Below, one piece after another: positions 55,980 to 63,302 of a stretch of DNA of 64,000 bases (position 1 is the first letter of the stretch; each line of letters opens with the position of its first letter). The stretch is taken from assembly GCF_000526195.1 (NCBI RefSeq), contig NZ_JAFP01000001.1, forward strand, positions 1,090,001 through 1,154,000, given 5' to 3'. Under the pieces are notes generated by a model, which saw nothing but the letters and a program-made list of their open reading frames with translations, ran no database searches and was not told the origin of the DNA. The translations under genes and the position numbers were made by a program. The stretch is from Hippea sp. KM1 (GTDB taxonomy: Bacteria; Campylobacterota_A; Desulfurellia; Desulfurellales; Hippeaceae).

Positions 55980-57524
55980 ATGAAAAAACTCCCAATAGGC
56001 ATCCAGACCTTTAGCGAGATCATACAAGAAGGTTATTACTATGTTGACAAAACAGAGTTTGCATACAAGCTCTTGACAAAGGGCAAGTATTACTTCCTCT
56101 CCCGCCCCAGACGCTTCGGCAAATCACTCTTCCTTGACACATTGGCAGAGATATTCTTAGGACACAAGGAGCTATTCAAAGGACTATACATCTATGACAA
56201 GTATGACTTCAAGCCCCACCCTGTTATAAGGATATCATTTGGCAGCGGGGATTACTCTTTGGATGAGAGCCAGACGATCAATGAGATAAAGTACATATTA
56301 GAGGACAACTTGGAGACTCTGGGTTTAGAGTGTAAAGACCTAAATGACTTCAAAGACTGTTTCAGACAACTCATAAAAGAAGCCTATCTTAAACACTCCC
56401 AACGAGTCGTCATCCTCATAGACGAATACGACAAACCCATCCTTGACAACATCACAAACAAGGATATGGCAAAAAGGGCAAGAAACATTCTAAAGAACTT
56501 CTACTCTGTGATAAAGGACAGCGACAGATATATCAGGTTTGTCTTTATCACTGGAGTAAGCAAGTTCTCAAAGCTCAACCTCTTCAGTGGTTTGAACAAC
56601 TTAGAGGACATCACCCTCAATGAAGAGTTTGCAGAGATCTGTGGTTATACACATGATGATCTGTTGACCGTCTTCAAAGACAGAATAGAGGGTATAGACT
56701 TAGAGTTGGTCAAGAGGTGGTATAATGGCTACAACTACTTTGGCAAACCCCTATACAACCCATTTGACATACTTCTGTTTCTCTCAAACAACGGCACATT
56801 CCGCAACTACTGGTGGCAGACAGGAAACCCATCGTTTCTGATAGAATTACTAAAAGAGGATGATTACTATATCCCTGAGCTTGAATACTCAGAGGTTACA
56901 GAAGAGATACTGAATGCGTTTGATGTTGACTACATTGACCTAAGGGCACTTCTTTGGCAAACAGGTTATTTGACATTTGACAAAAGGATAGCAGACAACC
57001 TTGGGGGATACACCTACACACTCAGGGTACCAAACACAGAGGTGAGAATCTCACTAAACCAGCTCCTCATAGATTATCTAACCAACCAAAGACAACAGAA
57101 GGCCAGATACCGCCTTGATATGTTCAACTATTTAAACAGAAACGACATCAACGGTTTTGTTGAACTGTTTAAGAAGATCTTTGCCTCTATTCCATACACA
57201 AACTATGTAAACAATGTAATATCAAACTACGAGGGTTATTACAGCAGCGTTGTTTTTGTCTACCTGATGGCTTTGGGCTATGATGTGATACCTGAGGATA
57301 TAACAAACAGGGGAAGGATTGATTTAGCAGTTAAGACAGAGGATAAGATACTGATTGTTGAGTTCAAGGTTGATGCAAAAGAGCAGCCGATAAAGCAGAT
57401 AAAAGAGAGAAGATACTACGAGAAATACCTGAATGAGAACAAAGAGATATACCTCATTGGTATGGTGTTTGACTCAAAGGAGAGGAATATTAGCCAGTGG
57501 GAAGTTGAGAGGGTGGATGGGTGA
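55980..57524 (+). CDS. AAA-ATPase / PD-(D/E)XK nuclease-like protein (DUF1703 group)
   Basis: 514-residue member of a mobile, often multi-copy family. The N-terminal domain begins MKKLPIGIQTFSEIIQEGYYYVDKT, with Walker A in SRPRRFGKSLFLDTLAEIF and Walker B VVILIDEYDKPIL. The C-terminal domain has GRIDLAVKTEDKILIVEFKVD, a PD-(D/E)XK nuclease pattern (Asp, then Glu-x-Lys). Cellular role is unknown; defence or selfish-element roles have been suggested. It has its own promoter and marks the start of the accessory region. The gene end runs into an 8-bp tandem repeat covering the stop codon. Confidence 0.88.
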   Translation: MKKLPIGIQTFSEIIQEGYYYVDKTEFAYKLLTKGKYYFLSRPRRFGKSLFLDTLAEIFLGHKELFKGLYIYDKYDFKPHPVIRISFGSGDYSLDESQTINEIKYILEDNLETLGLECKDLNDFKDCFRQLIKEAYLKHSQRVVILIDEYDKPILDNITNKDMAKRARNILKNFYSVIKDSDRYIRFVFITGVSKFSKLNLFSGLNNLEDITLNEEFAEICGYTHDDLLTVFKDRIEGIDLELVKRWYNGYNYFGKPLYNPFDILLFLSNNGTFRNYWWQTGNPSFLIELLKEDDYYIPELEYSEVTEEILNAFDVDYIDLRALLWQTGYLTFDKRIADNLGGYTYTLRVPNTEVRISLNQLLIDYLTNQRQQKARYRLDMFNYLNRNDINGFVELFKKIFASIPYTNYVNNVISNYEGYYSSVVFVYLMALGYDVIPEDITNRGRIDLAVKTEDKILIVEFKVDAKEQPIKQIKERRYYEKYLNENKEIYLIGMVFDSKERNISQWEVERVDG

Positions 57525-57678: not shown

Positions 57679-59922
57679 TTACCCGGAAAAATAAAAACAT
57701 CCGAAACTCAATAATATTACAATTGCAAAGGAGATAAGAAATAGTATTAGGCCAGAAAGTTTTGTGTATTTGCCTTGTTTAAGTCCAAGAAAGCCCGCAA
57801 CAAACGATAAAACAAGGGCGAAGATACCTAACACTATTCCTAAAAAATTGTTGCATTTATCGAAATTACCCACATTCATACCCAAGATTCCTGCAATTAA
57901 AGATGGAGGCAGCAAAAGATAGCCCAGCTTATTCAGGCTATCCAGCTCCATATTCCTTTTACTCTCAACCCTGAAATTGATATAGTTGTTCAGCTCTTCA
58001 ATCTCCCTATCAAAATCCTTTAGCAAACCCTCTATGCCCATCACAGCAAAGGCCTTCCTGTAAATTTCAATACCCTGATCCTGGGGTGTTATTTCCTTGA
58101 AATATATGCCGTTTAGAAAACTTAAGTATTTTTCATAAATCCCCTTTGCCTCTTCTGATATATTATCAAAACTCTCTTTTTCGCTTATCAATTGCACCAT
58201 TTTTTGCACCTGTGTATTCAGATAAACAAGATAGGCCTTATAAGACAATAGAAGAATAACCATATCGAAATACATGCTATTTGCATGCTCCATGATAAAA
58301 TCCGCGCTGCTTATGCCCACAAACGAATATCTCGTTATACCCCATAAAGTGCCCCAATCAATCCATCTATCGTAAGTTGACTCTTTCACGACCTCCTTAC
58401 AAAAAACCCTATTGGCACATGATTTATCTTTTCCATCAACAAACAGAAACTTATACCACCAATCGTCATCAACATAACCATACTCACCACTATCGAACTT
58501 CATAAGCCTATTTAAAACCCTTTTCTTCTCATCCAAATGAAAGCTGACAACAAACATCCTATCGTCAATTATAGGCAGAACCGCATCTCCGACTATCTTT
58601 TTGATAAACGACGGTATCATCTTTGATTCAACCCTATCCAACTTGGCAATCTCACCATCCAAGCTTTTAAAATTAGAAAAGTCTTCAACAACAGTATGAC
58701 CGTTTATCTTAAGTTCTATCCTATCCGCCAAAAAAGCATCTTTCGCTGCTTCCACAAAATCATTATTTTTTTTCAAAAATTGCGGATATATCCTTCTTCC
58801 AAAGTCGTTTATCTTGAGTATCTCATTTTCGTTGTATTCGTAGTTTTTAAGATGAAACGATAAAATGCCAATACTTTTATCGAACACATAAAGCGTAAGC
58901 TTCTCTAAAATCAAAGAAAACTCATTCTCTTCTTTTTTCATTTTGATTTTGATTTTATAAACAGATCCTTCTTCAGCGATTAACTCTTTTGTCTCACTTA
59001 GAGAATTTTCACCAGTTCTTGGAAAAAGCACTTTTCTTATATGCGGATAAAAATAAGAAAACTCGTTATAAAGCCCAGCAGAGTTCAATTCTGTTTTAGC
59101 TTCCCGCCACTCTCCAAATTCACATTTATTGAGCGCATCTCTGAATTTATCGTAATCCTTGATCACAAAAGGAAACATAAAGGTATGTGTACTAACAGGT
59201 CTACCAACAGCCATTAGAACCCTCTTTAGCACATTTTTATCTATTTTTTTATTAACGCCCAAAAACCCTCTTTCGCCGCCTCCCCAAAAATCGGCCTTAA
59301 TCCCAATTTTTTCAAGATAGTTTTGTAAATCCTCCACATCAAAGCCATAAAACATCGCAAGCCTATCATTATAGACAATAAACTCCATCCACGGCTTTTC
59401 AAAGAAAATCCTATCGCAAAGCGGGGAGAAGCGCTCATAGTTAAAGTAAATAATTCTCTTTAATTCCACACTCTTTGACGCTTCTTCTTCTTGCTCTGAC
59501 ACACCCTGGCACAGTCTATCCAGCCTTCTTATTCTTTCTATATCAGCCATGCCAAATCCCTCGTTCATTAAGGCCTTAATATAAGCCTTATCATTCAACG
59601 CAACTGCATATTCAAATCTGCTTAATTTATGATTTAAAATCACTGCTACCTGCTCAATACTTGAGGGTTTATCTGAATTATCGTTGTGGTGGTCTATAAA
59701 AACAACATTGCCGTTTTTTATGTTAAGGTCGTTTTCAAGCTCTACGGCATAAATTGTTTGGTTTTTGAACTGCTCAAGCTCTGACTTGTATGCACTAATC
59801 TTTGCGCCCCACTCAAGGTTTTTGTCGATAAACTTAACGCCATGCTTTTTTAGTATCCTCTTTATGGCGCACATCTCCAAATCTCTGCCACCTAATAGGA
59901 AAACCATATCACTATTTTGCAT
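57679..59922 (-). CDS. Putative DHH-DHHA1 (NrN-like) phosphodiesterase fused to CorA-type membrane effector, CRISPR-adjacent
   Basis: 747 residues from the ATG at 59922 (an in-frame TTG at 59934 is possible). Residues 1-225 look like a DHH-DHHA1 phosphodiesterase: FLLGGRDLEM (acidic motif I, 9-18), VFIDHHND (DHH at 77-79), ALNDKAY (Asp about 111) and WGGGERGFLGV (213-223), a degenerate DHHA1 GGGHxxAxG motif. From about 240 it resembles CorA proteins: THTFMFPF, WGTLWGITRYSFVG, a long helical region, and three C-terminal hydrophobic segments, with the CorA signature GMN (681-683) after the first. In type III CRISPR systems CorA is a SAM-AMP-gated membrane effector and NrN degrades SAM-AMP. The fusion would join effector and off-switch. 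It lies 47 bp downstream of a CRISPR array on the same strand. No cas10 is in the window. CorA-type Mg transport is the main alternative for the C-terminal part. Confidence 0.72.
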   Translation of the reverse strand: MQNSDMVFLLGGRDLEMCAIKRILKKHGVKFIDKNLEWGAKISAYKSELEQFKNQTIYAVELENDLNIKNGNVVFIDHHNDNSDKPSSIEQVAVILNHKLSRFEYAVALNDKAYIKALMNEGFGMADIERIRRLDRLCQGVSEQEEEASKSVELKRIIYFNYERFSPLCDRIFFEKPWMEFIVYNDRLAMFYGFDVEDLQNYLEKIGIKADFWGGGERGFLGVNKKIDKNVLKRVLMAVGRPVSTHTFMFPFVIKDYDKFRDALNKCEFGEWREAKTELNSAGLYNEFSYFYPHIRKVLFPRTGENSLSETKELIAEEGSVYKIKIKMKKEENEFSLILEKLTLYVFDKSIGILSFHLKNYEYNENEILKINDFGRRIYPQFLKKNNDFVEAAKDAFLADRIELKINGHTVVEDFSNFKSLDGEIAKLDRVESKMIPSFIKKIVGDAVLPIIDDRMFVVSFHLDEKKRVLNRLMKFDSGEYGYVDDDWWYKFLFVDGKDKSCANRVFCKEVVKESTYDRWIDWGTLWGITRYSFVGISSADFIMEHANSMYFDMVILLLSYKAYLVYLNTQVQKMVQLISEKESFDNISEEAKGIYEKYLSFLNGIYFKEITPQDQGIEIYRKAFAVMGIEGLLKDFDREIEELNNYINFRVESKRNMELDSLNKLGYLLLPPSLIAGILGMNVGNFDKCNNFLGIVLGIFALVLSFVAGFLGLKQGKYTKLSGLILFLISFAIVILLSFGCFYFSG

Positions 59923-59969: not shown

Positions 59970-61101
59970 GTAATTAAATCACCATTCAACATACTCCCCA
60001 GTCGACAAGACTAAGATTAACGTATATTTCTGGGATGATGGAATGTCTCGAAATCACCATTCAACATACTCCTCAGTCGACAGTTTGTTGCGCAACAGCT
60101 AAGGAAATGGTTTAAAGATGTCTCGAAATCACCATTCAACATACTCCTCAGTCGACGAGACTAATCAATTTCATAAAAAGGTCTGCTCCTCAGTACACGT
60201 CTCGAAATCACCATTCAACATACTCCTCAGTCGACAGTTGAATACGAGTTGAATGGACATCATCTAGATTATGTGGCATTCGTCTCGAAATCACCATTTA
60301 ACATACTCCCCAGTCGACTCCGGTCTAATCGTCGGAACACTGCTCGTTGAGGCGAAATATCTCGTCTCGAAATCACCATTTAACATACTCCTCAGTCGAC
60401 TTGTCAATTTTATTAAGCGAACAGCTCCGATGTATAGCAACGCAGGTCTCGAAATCACCATTTAACATACTCCTCAGTCGACGTTCTGTCGAAGTTATTG
60501 CTAAAAGATAAACCCAACGAGTATTTCGTCTCGAAATCACCATTTAACATACTCCTCAGTCGACACTACTACTGAAAGACAAACCAGATAACTATATAGA
60601 GAAAGGTCTCGAAATCACCATTTAACATACTCCTCAGTCGACTGGTTCAAATATGGGTTCTGCAGCGGCTTGATTATGTCTCGAAATCACCATTTAACAT
60701 ACTCCTCAGTCGACAACTTCTATTCTCACACTCTATAGGAACTTAAAAAAGAATGTCTCGAAATCACCATTTAACATACTCCTCAGTCGACCACATTTGA
60801 AGTAGACGCTCCGAAAGTAGAGGACTGGATGGAGTCTCGAAATCACCATTTAACATACTCCTCAGTCGACTTATTATAATCATTTCATTCGGTTTTATTT
60901 TGTATCTAATGTCTCGAAATCACCATTTAACATACTCCTCAGTCGACTTATCAGAATGTCAGAGCGAAAGCTGGAAACATACATTTTATGTCTCGAAATC
61001 ACCATTTAACATACTCCTCAGTCGACAGGTGAGTTATGATGACATTCGAGGGTCAACTGCAAAAGTCTCGAAATCACCATTTAACATACTCCTCAGTCGA
61101 C
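59970..61101 (-). CRISPR. CRISPR array: 15 repeats of 37 bp, 14 spacers
   Basis: Repeats begin GTCTCGAAATCACCAT and end CTCCTCAGTCGAC in plus orientation. Starts: 59970 (degenerate), 60045, 60120, 60199, 60282, 60364, 60446, 60528, 60606, 60678, 60755, 60834, 60911, 60990, 61065. Spacers are 35-46 bp. The left terminal repeat has lost its first bases, and repeats 1-4 carry a C where later ones have T, so the left end is the old (trailer) end and the leader lies right. A matching minus-strand promoter sits at 61116-61144, so crRNAs read leftward and the repeat reads GTCGACTGAGG...TTTCGAGAC. No cas genes accompany it here. Confidence 0.97.
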
Positions 61102-61580: not shown

Positions 61581-61979
61581 GTGTTTCTGAATAAACTCAC
61601 TGATGACGAAAAAAAAGCTTTTATTAAACTTGCTTATTACCTGGCGAAAATAGACAAAAGGTTTTCAAAGGAAGAAAAGGATATTGTCTCTTCTTTTTTG
61701 AGAGAAATGAATATGGAAGACCCTGGTTTTAACGAGGAAGAGTTTGATTTATATGATGTTCTGTCTAATTTTAAAAGGAAAATTTCTAAAAACATTGTAG
61801 TTGTTGAGCTGTTTAGCCTTGCTTTAATTGATGATTATATGAGTATTGAAGAGAATGAACTGTTGAAAAAAGTTATTAATTATTTTGAAATAGACCCAAA
61901 GCTATTAATTTTGCTTTATAATTTTTCTAAAGCTTATGTTTCACTCTATATTCAAGGTGAAACTCTAATAACACTTTAG
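61581..61979 (+). CDS. TerB-like protein
   Basis: 132-residue helical protein with the tellurite-resistance TerB look: AFIKLAYYLAKIDKRFSKEEKDIV followed by a second acidic helix pair (LIDDYMSIEENELLKKVINYF). TerB-like domains are metal-binding and often occur in membrane-associated defence or stress modules. The start is GTG, set by AGGAGGT seven bases upstream; an overlapping ATG in another frame stops after three codons. First gene of a four-gene operon with dynamin-like GTPases. AT-rich relative to the core genes. Confidence 0.72.
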   Translation: MFLNKLTDDEKKAFIKLAYYLAKIDKRFSKEEKDIVSSFLREMNMEDPGFNEEEFDLYDVLSNFKRKISKNIVVVELFSLALIDDYMSIEENELLKKVINYFEIDPKLLILLYNFSKAYVSLYIQGETLITL

Positions 61980-61991
61980 AGGAGTGAAGAA

Positions 61992-62861
61992 ATGGATGCA
62001 ATGGAAAAAATCATAGAAATAGAAAGACTTGTCCCAATAGCATCGGAAGACCTAAAAAAACTGAAACATTTGTTGGAGAATATGGAAAAAAACAGAAAGC
62101 CTGTAGTTGCCGCTATAGGTTTATATAACCACGGCAAGAGCTCAATATTAAACGCTTTGATTGACGATTTAGATAACAGAACTTTCAAAGTAGCCGACAA
62201 AAGAGAAACAAAGAGAATAGAAATAAAAGATATGGATGATTTTGTATACATGGATACACCTGGTATAGATGCAAGGGAAGACGACGACAGAAGGGTTTTA
62301 GACGCTGTCATGGATATTGATGCTATACTTTTTGTTCATAACCCTTCAACAGGTGAGCTTGCAAGCAAAGAAGTGGAGTTTTTACATCTGATTAGAAAGA
62401 GTTTTAAGGATGTTAGAGAATTTGCAGATAGAACGATTTTTGTGTTGTCTCGTATAGATGAATTGGAAGAGGGTGAGGTTGAAAGGGTAAAAAATAAAAT
62501 AAAAAGCCAAATAAAGGAATACTTAGGAGCTGATATTTACATAAAAGAGGTGTCGGCCAAAAGGTATTTTAAGGGTGTAAAGGAAAACAAAAATATTTTT
62601 ATTGAAAAAAGTGGTATAGTTTCCTTGATGGATGCGATTTTTACTATAATTAGATTAAATGCTGACAAAATGATGGCTTCTAAAAAAGAGAAAGTTATAA
62701 AAACCATAGATTCTATAATATCTAATTTAAACAGAAGAGCTAAAAAACTGTATAAAGAAGTAAATATTCTAACACAAGAAAAGCAAAAATTTGAGTCAGA
62801 CATTTTTGAGGAATTGTGGCTAATAAATTCTACAATAGAAGAGTACAAGAAAGCTTTATAA
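61992..62861 (+). CDS. Dynamin-like / GTP-binding protein (first GTPase)
   Basis: 289 residues. G1 is IGLYNHGKSSILNAL, G3 is MDTPGID, and the G4 position reads LSRIDE, where Ser-Arg replaces Asn-Lys, so base specificity may be relaxed. A helical C-terminal region (about 215-289) ends in a coiled coil. The layout fits a short bacterial dynamin-like or LeoA/HflX-distant GTPase. A GAGGAG ribosome-binding site precedes the ATG, 12 bp after the TerB-like stop. Confidence 0.8.
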   Translation: MDAMEKIIEIERLVPIASEDLKKLKHLLENMEKNRKPVVAAIGLYNHGKSSILNALIDDLDNRTFKVADKRETKRIEIKDMDDFVYMDTPGIDAREDDDRRVLDAVMDIDAILFVHNPSTGELASKEVEFLHLIRKSFKDVREFADRTIFVLSRIDELEEGEVERVKNKIKSQIKEYLGADIYIKEVSAKRYFKGVKENKNIFIEKSGIVSLMDAIFTIIRLNADKMMASKKEKVIKTIDSIISNLNRRAKKLYKEVNILTQEKQKFESDIFEELWLINSTIEEYKKAL

Positions 62862-62873
62862 GTGGAGGATCGT

Positions 62874-63302
62874 ATGTTTATTATATATGATTTAGTTGAA
62901 TACATTTATAATCAAATAAAAGAATTAGTTGACCCTGAGCCAACGCCAACACCGCCATCTCATGCCTATAGAAAGAAAGACGAGAGCGAGTATTTAAAAA
63001 GAAAAAAACAGGAAGAGGAGAGGCGAAGATATATATTAAGCAGGGAGTTGAACTCATACAAAAGCCAATCTGCTATATTCATGAAAAACAAATATGGAGT
63101 TACAATAAACTTTGAGCCCAGTGGGTCGGATATCCATGAGTTAGGCTCTAAACGTATAGACTTTAAAAATGTTTTTCTGGTGTCTGCAGGAGAACAATAT
63201 AAAAACCTTTGTTATGAGATAGAACAAAAGGAAAGCGAGTTAAAGAGGATAGTTGAAGCGATTAATGAATTAGAAAAAATTAAAAGGAGTATGCAGGGAT
63301 GA
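62874..63302 (+). CDS. Coiled-coil protein between the two GTPases
   Basis: About 142 residues from the ATG at 62874, which has GGAGG upstream; an in-frame GTG at 62862 overlaps that site and is rejected. A short hydrophobic N-terminus (FIIYDLVEYIYNQIKEL) is followed by a Pro-Thr stretch (DPEPTPTPPS), a highly charged helix (RKKQEEERRRYILSREL), and a C-terminal coiled coil (YEIEQKESELKRIVEAINELEKI). I do not recognise the family. The end overlaps the next start (ATGA). Probably a partner of the GTPases. Confidence 0.7.
   Translation: MFIIYDLVEYIYNQIKELVDPEPTPTPPSHAYRKKDESEYLKRKKQEEERRRYILSRELNSYKSQSAIFMKNKYGVTINFEPSGSDIHELGSKRIDFKNVFLVSAGEQYKNLCYEIEQKESELKRIVEAINELEKIKRSMQG

Follow-up and report, generated by a model that had tools for sequence, protein, structure and literature searches.

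The chromosome of Hippea sp. KM1 encodes a single-chain fusion of an NrN-type phosphodiesterase and a CRISPR-type CorA membrane protein. This protein is very probably the SAM-AMP-gated membrane effector of the single III-B (Cmr) system of the organism, carrying its own SAM-AMP hydrolase. The gene, referred to below as nrn-corA, lies in the analysed window, a stretch of 64,000 nucleotides belonging to a complete 1.74-Mb chromosome. Its ATG is found at position 59922 and its stop at 57679 on the minus strand; an alternative in-frame TTG start, 12 nt upstream, would give a product of 751 aa. The gene and its two domains are as follows.

57679..59922, minus strand: nrn-corA fusion gene, 747 aa, one uninterrupted open reading frame
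59224..59910, minus strand: NrN (DHH-DHHA1-type phosphodiesterase) domain, residues 5-233; PADLOC profile PDLC01149 (DHH_CorA), E=1.7e-56; PDB 9lq9, E=2.5e-41
57790..59196, minus strand: CRISPR-type CorA (soluble sensor plus membrane part), residues 243-711; PADLOC profile PDLC01174, E=4.5e-132

Both PADLOC domain matches are far beyond chance, and a second PADLOC profile of CRISPR CorA proteins matches the chain with E=2.7e-97, the two CorA profiles scoring 439 and 324 bits. The initial annotation had proposed the fusion from the DNA alone and suggested profile searches of both parts. The NrN and CRISPR CorA searches bore the proposal out, whereas the general Pfam CorA model (PF01544) stayed at 19.4 bits, below its cut-off of 27, and covered residues 640-705 only; the NCBIfam search of the protein gave no match. 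The motifs quoted in that annotation are likewise all present, including WGTLWG, which begins at residue 523. The features of the CorA half are listed below.

58792..58809, minus strand: NDFGRR, residues 372-377, with R376-R377 invariant in an alignment of five fusions
58561..58566, minus strand: D453-D454 within P-I-[IL]-D-D-R-M-F, invariant in the same alignment
57874..57882, minus strand: GMN signature of the CorA pore, residues 681-683; GMN in four of the five fusions, GIN in Haliscomenobacter
57787..57843, minus strand: hydrophobic segment after GMN, residues 694-712, TM2-like for a CorA protein according to hydropathy
57694..57750, minus strand: further C-terminal hydrophobic segment, residues 725-743, from hydropathy; present in all five fusions

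Judging from spacing and context, R376-R377 probably correspond to R152-R153 of the Bacteroides fragilis CorA, and D453-D454 are the probable counterpart of its D219-D220; mutational data exist for both of these B. fragilis pairs, which belong to the putative SAM-AMP site (PMC10600005). The structure of the full protein, predicted from a two-sequence alignment, had a mean pLDDT of 33.7 and was too poor for use. The GMN signature and the weak Pfam match would also suit a conventional magnesium transporter of the CorA family that has acquired a DHH phosphodiesterase by fusion and plays no part in CRISPR signalling, the alternative which the initial annotation itself had named. This reading is scarcely credible, as the CRISPR-specific CorA profiles give 439 and 324 bits against 19 for Pfam CorA, and the examined relatives sit either in Cmr loci or in a genome with a SAM-type Cas10. 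Canonical CorA Mg/Co transporters (PDB 4eeb, 3jcf) have the pore-proximal helix and the GMN-type signature in common with the fusion, but they lack its CRISPR-specific soluble domain, the extra C-terminal hydrophobic segment and the phosphodiesterase, and there is no significant full-length match between them. With a profile of the five fusions, canonical CorA structures match the pore region weakly but genuinely (E about 1e-3).

The NrN half contains two motifs that bear on catalysis.

59686..59694, minus strand: DHH catalytic motif, residues 77-79, equivalent to D85-H86-H87 of B. fragilis NrN (function from PMC10600005)
59275..59283, minus strand: DHHA1 GGG, residues 214-216, followed in the sequence by Glu217

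The nearest solved proteins by sequence are the NrN chains 9lq9, 9lqa and 9lqc (residues 7-231, E=2.5e-41), and the match improves to E=9.4e-66 when a profile of the five fusions is used. The deposited chains differ from one another: 9lq9 reads DLEM and NDKAYI, 9lqa has DLAM, and 9lqc has NAKAYI; the Glu and the Asp were presumably altered in the latter two to block turnover. The fusion protein retains both of these positions (E16 and D111) along with the DHH triad, and DLE(M), DHH and ND(xx)YI are invariant in the five fusions and in two unfused NrNs. DHH begins at residue 86 in the solved NrN, against the D85 quoted for B. fragilis NrN (PMC10600005), an offset that a tag of one residue on the B. 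fragilis protein would explain.

The catalytic residues of the NrN half are thus intact, and by analogy with the B. fragilis system the fused copy would be expected to hydrolyse SAM-AMP. Ordinary DHHA1 domains carry a His after GGG, and its replacement by Glu had been taken in the initial annotation as a possible sign of a slowed enzyme or of a sensor. A non-catalytic NrN half, binding SAM-AMP and tuning the channel, is very improbable. The His is no requirement of the family, since the solved NrN reads GGGI and not GGGH, and the position is occupied by E, K, R, E and F in the five fusions; Glu217 is therefore normal for an NrN and uninformative about the rate of the enzyme. The invariance of DLEM, DHH and NDxxYI argues against a mere sensor as well, and so does the purifying selection on this half of the protein (dN 0.037, dS 0.244 in comparison with the homologue of 88% identity). 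For the whole fusion, the same comparison gave dN 0.065 and dS 0.352. With dN well under dS, the fusion is under purifying selection and both halves are maintained.

The initial annotation had also pointed to an adjoining CRISPR array and to the search for a cas10 with a matching repeat, and both were found in this genome.

59970..61101 (about), no strand assigned: CRISPR array 1, 15 repeats of 37 nt (GTCTCGAAATCACCATTYAACATACTCCYCAGTCGAC), the first repeat degenerate

Array 1 begins about 50 bp upstream of nrn-corA. Its repeat occurs at three places in the genome: in array 1, in array 2 and as two lone copies near 866 kb. The lone copies (chromosome contig C1, 866340-866437, minus strand) lie among housekeeping-type genes and might be an array remnant or an ectopic seed. 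Array 2, at 1157.0-1158.6 kb of the genome and outside the window, has the identical repeat and is placed beside cas2. Its neighbours, all on the minus strand, are cmr1, cas10, cmr3, cmr4, cmr5, cmr6, a gene for a CARF-PD-(D/E)xK nuclease, RT-cas1 and cas2. The III-B (Cmr) operon is complete and located on the same chromosome as nrn-corA, outside the window and about 9-18 kb from it. nrn-corA itself is not part of the operon. Some 9 kb lie between it and cas2, and some 16 kb between it and cas10, a distance that spans an array and a cluster of dynamin-like genes. That cluster, on the plus strand between the two arrays (from window position 61581-63302 to chromosome position 1156589), encodes a TerB-like protein and three dynamin-like GTPases, which match the Eleos defence proteins LeoA and LeoBC. 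Together with the CRISPR locus, it looks like a defence island. On the other side, downstream of nrn-corA, a gene for an AAA-ATPase-like/PDDEXK_9 protein (window 55980-57524, plus strand) was noted, and a related ORF also flanks the fusion of another genome of the phylum, G013. The RT-Cas1 protein (RVT_1 plus Cas1; chromosome 1159286-1161400, minus strand) is itself a fusion, suggesting that spacers may be taken from RNA. Cas6 was not found in the genome with Pfam PF10040, a weak negative, since the model matched only 2 of 14 control genomes.

With 90 bits, the operon cas10 stands far above every other Cas10-palm match in the genome; the remaining palm2 hits are weak, at 31 bits or less, and the Cmr2 model recovered none of them. 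The Cas10 protein has 484 aa and keeps GGDD, and no HD domain was shown by Pfam. Its D71 and D145 align with D70 and E151 of the B. fragilis protein (PDB 9lq5 numbering). These two acidic residues are conserved in the Cas10 proteins of CorA-1 systems; D70N alone caused a strong defect, and SAM-AMP synthesis was lost when both residues were mutated (PMC10600005). The second position is thus Asp instead of Glu in Hippea, and relatives have D, E and E.

The operon includes a further putative effector.

Chromosome contig C1, 1161315-1162493, minus strand, outside the window: CARF-PD-(D/E)xK nuclease, 392 aa; PADLOC profile PDLC01891, E=2.3e-123; Pfam Card1 endonuclease

The gene is placed between cmr6 and RT-cas1. 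Among 386 genomes, strong full-length members of this nuclease family (E below 1e-90) were confined to two, and it is these same two that combine the fusion with a SAM-type Cas10. In the second of them, G020, the nuclease gene again precedes RT-cas1; on contig C160 of that genome, the CARF homologue lies in a 399-aa open frame without a stop, although one TGA was reported near the end of the aligned stretch, where the frame overlaps RT-cas1. A third copy is present about 5 kb from the Arcobacter fusion, which brings to three the lineages in which the nuclease is linked to an NrN-CorA fusion. The protein retains an intact nuclease motif, NEFD...ECK. The CARF loop reads N[TSA]TDGL[SV] (TDGLS in this genome), against NITGG[TN]K in four more distant CARF nucleases, namely those of the phylum with a readable loop. 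As a TxGL-like loop is likewise seen in APE2256-type CARF proteins of CRISPR systems, the altered loop is a lead to, and not a proof of, a change of ligand.

Card1-like proteins are normally gated by cA4, and we know of no CARF protein that senses SAM-AMP. The presence of such a nuclease in the operon could indicate that the fusion answers another signal, for example a cyclic oligoadenylate, as was proposed for CorA in type III loci of Actinomyces. This is very improbable: the fused NrN belongs to a family whose specificity for SAM-AMP has been demonstrated, Cas10 bears the SAM-type acidic pair, and the loop of the CARF protein is itself atypical. A literature survey found that type III loci tend toward one signal, with CorA as an outlier (PMC11229360). 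Set against the cA4 gating of Card1-like proteins, this tendency leaves two options: a CARF domain that responds to SAM-AMP or some other ligand, or a Cas10 with more than one signal product. It is conceivable, if rather unlikely, that the nuclease is a second SAM-AMP effector with a rewired pocket, in which case one signal would open the channel and arm the nuclease; alternatively, Cas10 would make two kinds of signal.

The initial annotation had allowed that similar fusions might already be on record, and they had indeed been described: nrn-corA fusions in Aliarcobacter butzleri and relatives were reported by Chi et al. 2023 in Nature (PMC10600005). The NrN-CorA architecture is therefore not new, and the present locus extends it to another phylum. 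Within this phylum, the single-ORF fusion recurs in two other genomes with 88% and 54% identity, so that 3 of the 25 genomes carry it; Cas10 is found in two of these three. In G013, where no Cas10 was found, the fusion is located on a contig of 3.2 kb with low coverage. In the sample of 386 genomes, a CRISPR-type CorA was detected in nine and a strong NrN match in four, three of the latter being fusions, all of this phylum. In G122, a CorA without fused NrN follows a Cmr6-like gene, and in G116 NrN and CorA are encoded separately. Outside the phylum, the fusion is carried by plasmids of Arcobacter (37-39% identity) and Haliscomenobacter (31-33%). Plasmid records of Arcobacter (36.7%) and H. 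hydrossis (31.2%) have it at the head of a Cmr operon. Scanning viral contigs with the five-fusion alignment revealed no relative; in a phage collection, the sole hit was a weak, partial match of CorA to an unannotated record of 8.3 kb, and the relative with 88% identity was the only match among public genome contigs. A frameshift or assembly artefact was considered as the source of the single frame and rejected, given its recurrence as one ORF in the phylum and on the Arcobacter and Haliscomenobacter plasmids, and the purifying selection.

The Arcobacter fusions resemble the Hippea protein in having NrN followed by CorA in one chain (the order was checked in the Arcobacter plasmid) and in their company of a III-B Cmr system with RT-Cas1 and Cas2 and a nearby CARF-PDDEXK gene. 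They differ in sequence (about 37-39% identity) and in heading the cmr operon, whereas the Hippea gene stands alone beside an array, outside the cmr operon. In an NrN tree, whose seven sequences are too few to settle the history of the fusion, the fused Arcobacter NrN is placed beside its unfused B. fragilis counterpart (support 0.89; 45% identity) rather than with the NrN of this phylum's fusions (39% identity), which hints at more than one fusion event or at a later split. B. fragilis has homologous halves with conserved catalytic residues and a D/E pair in Cas10, compared with D/D here, but it encodes NrN and CorA as two genes. The pairing of the same channel with an enzyme degrading SAM-AMP is also known from systems with a SAM-AMP lyase (Clostridium botulinum) or a DEDD nuclease, where the degrading enzyme is unrelated.

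In the B. fragilis system, the SAM-AMP made by Cas10 is bound by CorA, which compromises the membrane, and is hydrolysed by NrN (PMC10600005, PMC12255297). By analogy, the Hippea Cmr complex, guided by crRNA, would bind foreign RNA, upon which Cas10 would join ATP and S-adenosylmethionine into SAM-AMP. Binding of SAM-AMP to the soluble domain of the CorA half would then open or disrupt the membrane pore, and the infected cell would be halted. The NrN half would hydrolyse the signal on the same chain as the channel, tying the lifetime of the signal to the number of channels; if the CorA half is pentameric like its relatives, each pore may bear five hydrolases. The fusion would also supply the degrading activity that CorA requires in published reconstitutions and guarantee that no channel is made without the enzyme.

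A reading of the NrN half purely as an off-switch, as in the timer suggested by the initial annotation, is too simple because of the data on this requirement (PMC12255297), and a purely timer-like role is a guess. CorA alone is toxic and gives no immunity, and a lyase or NrN rescue it equally (PMC10600005, PMC12255297). As a tentative refinement, which does not exclude the explanation given above, the NrN half may not be chiefly an off-switch but hold the local SAM-AMP level low against desensitisation, or assist folding or gating. This would explain why B. fragilis CorA without an active degrading enzyme confers no immunity and why a lyase can take the place of NrN (PMC10600005, PMC12255297), and the fusion would place the enzyme at the mouth of the channel. 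Since CorA alone is toxic and non-immune, and lyase and NrN are equivalent in rescue, the fusion fits a timer and a protection from desensitisation alike, and the two look the same at the level of sequence.

According to the literature, the need of CorA for a SAM-AMP-degrading enzyme in immunity is unexplained. In a natural fusion of the Hippea type, enzyme and channel subunit are present in a fixed ratio of one to one, and such a protein is suitable for comparing the timer with protection from desensitisation. The linked CARF nuclease, in turn, bears on whether CARF domains may read SAM-AMP or one Cas10 may drive two classes of signal.
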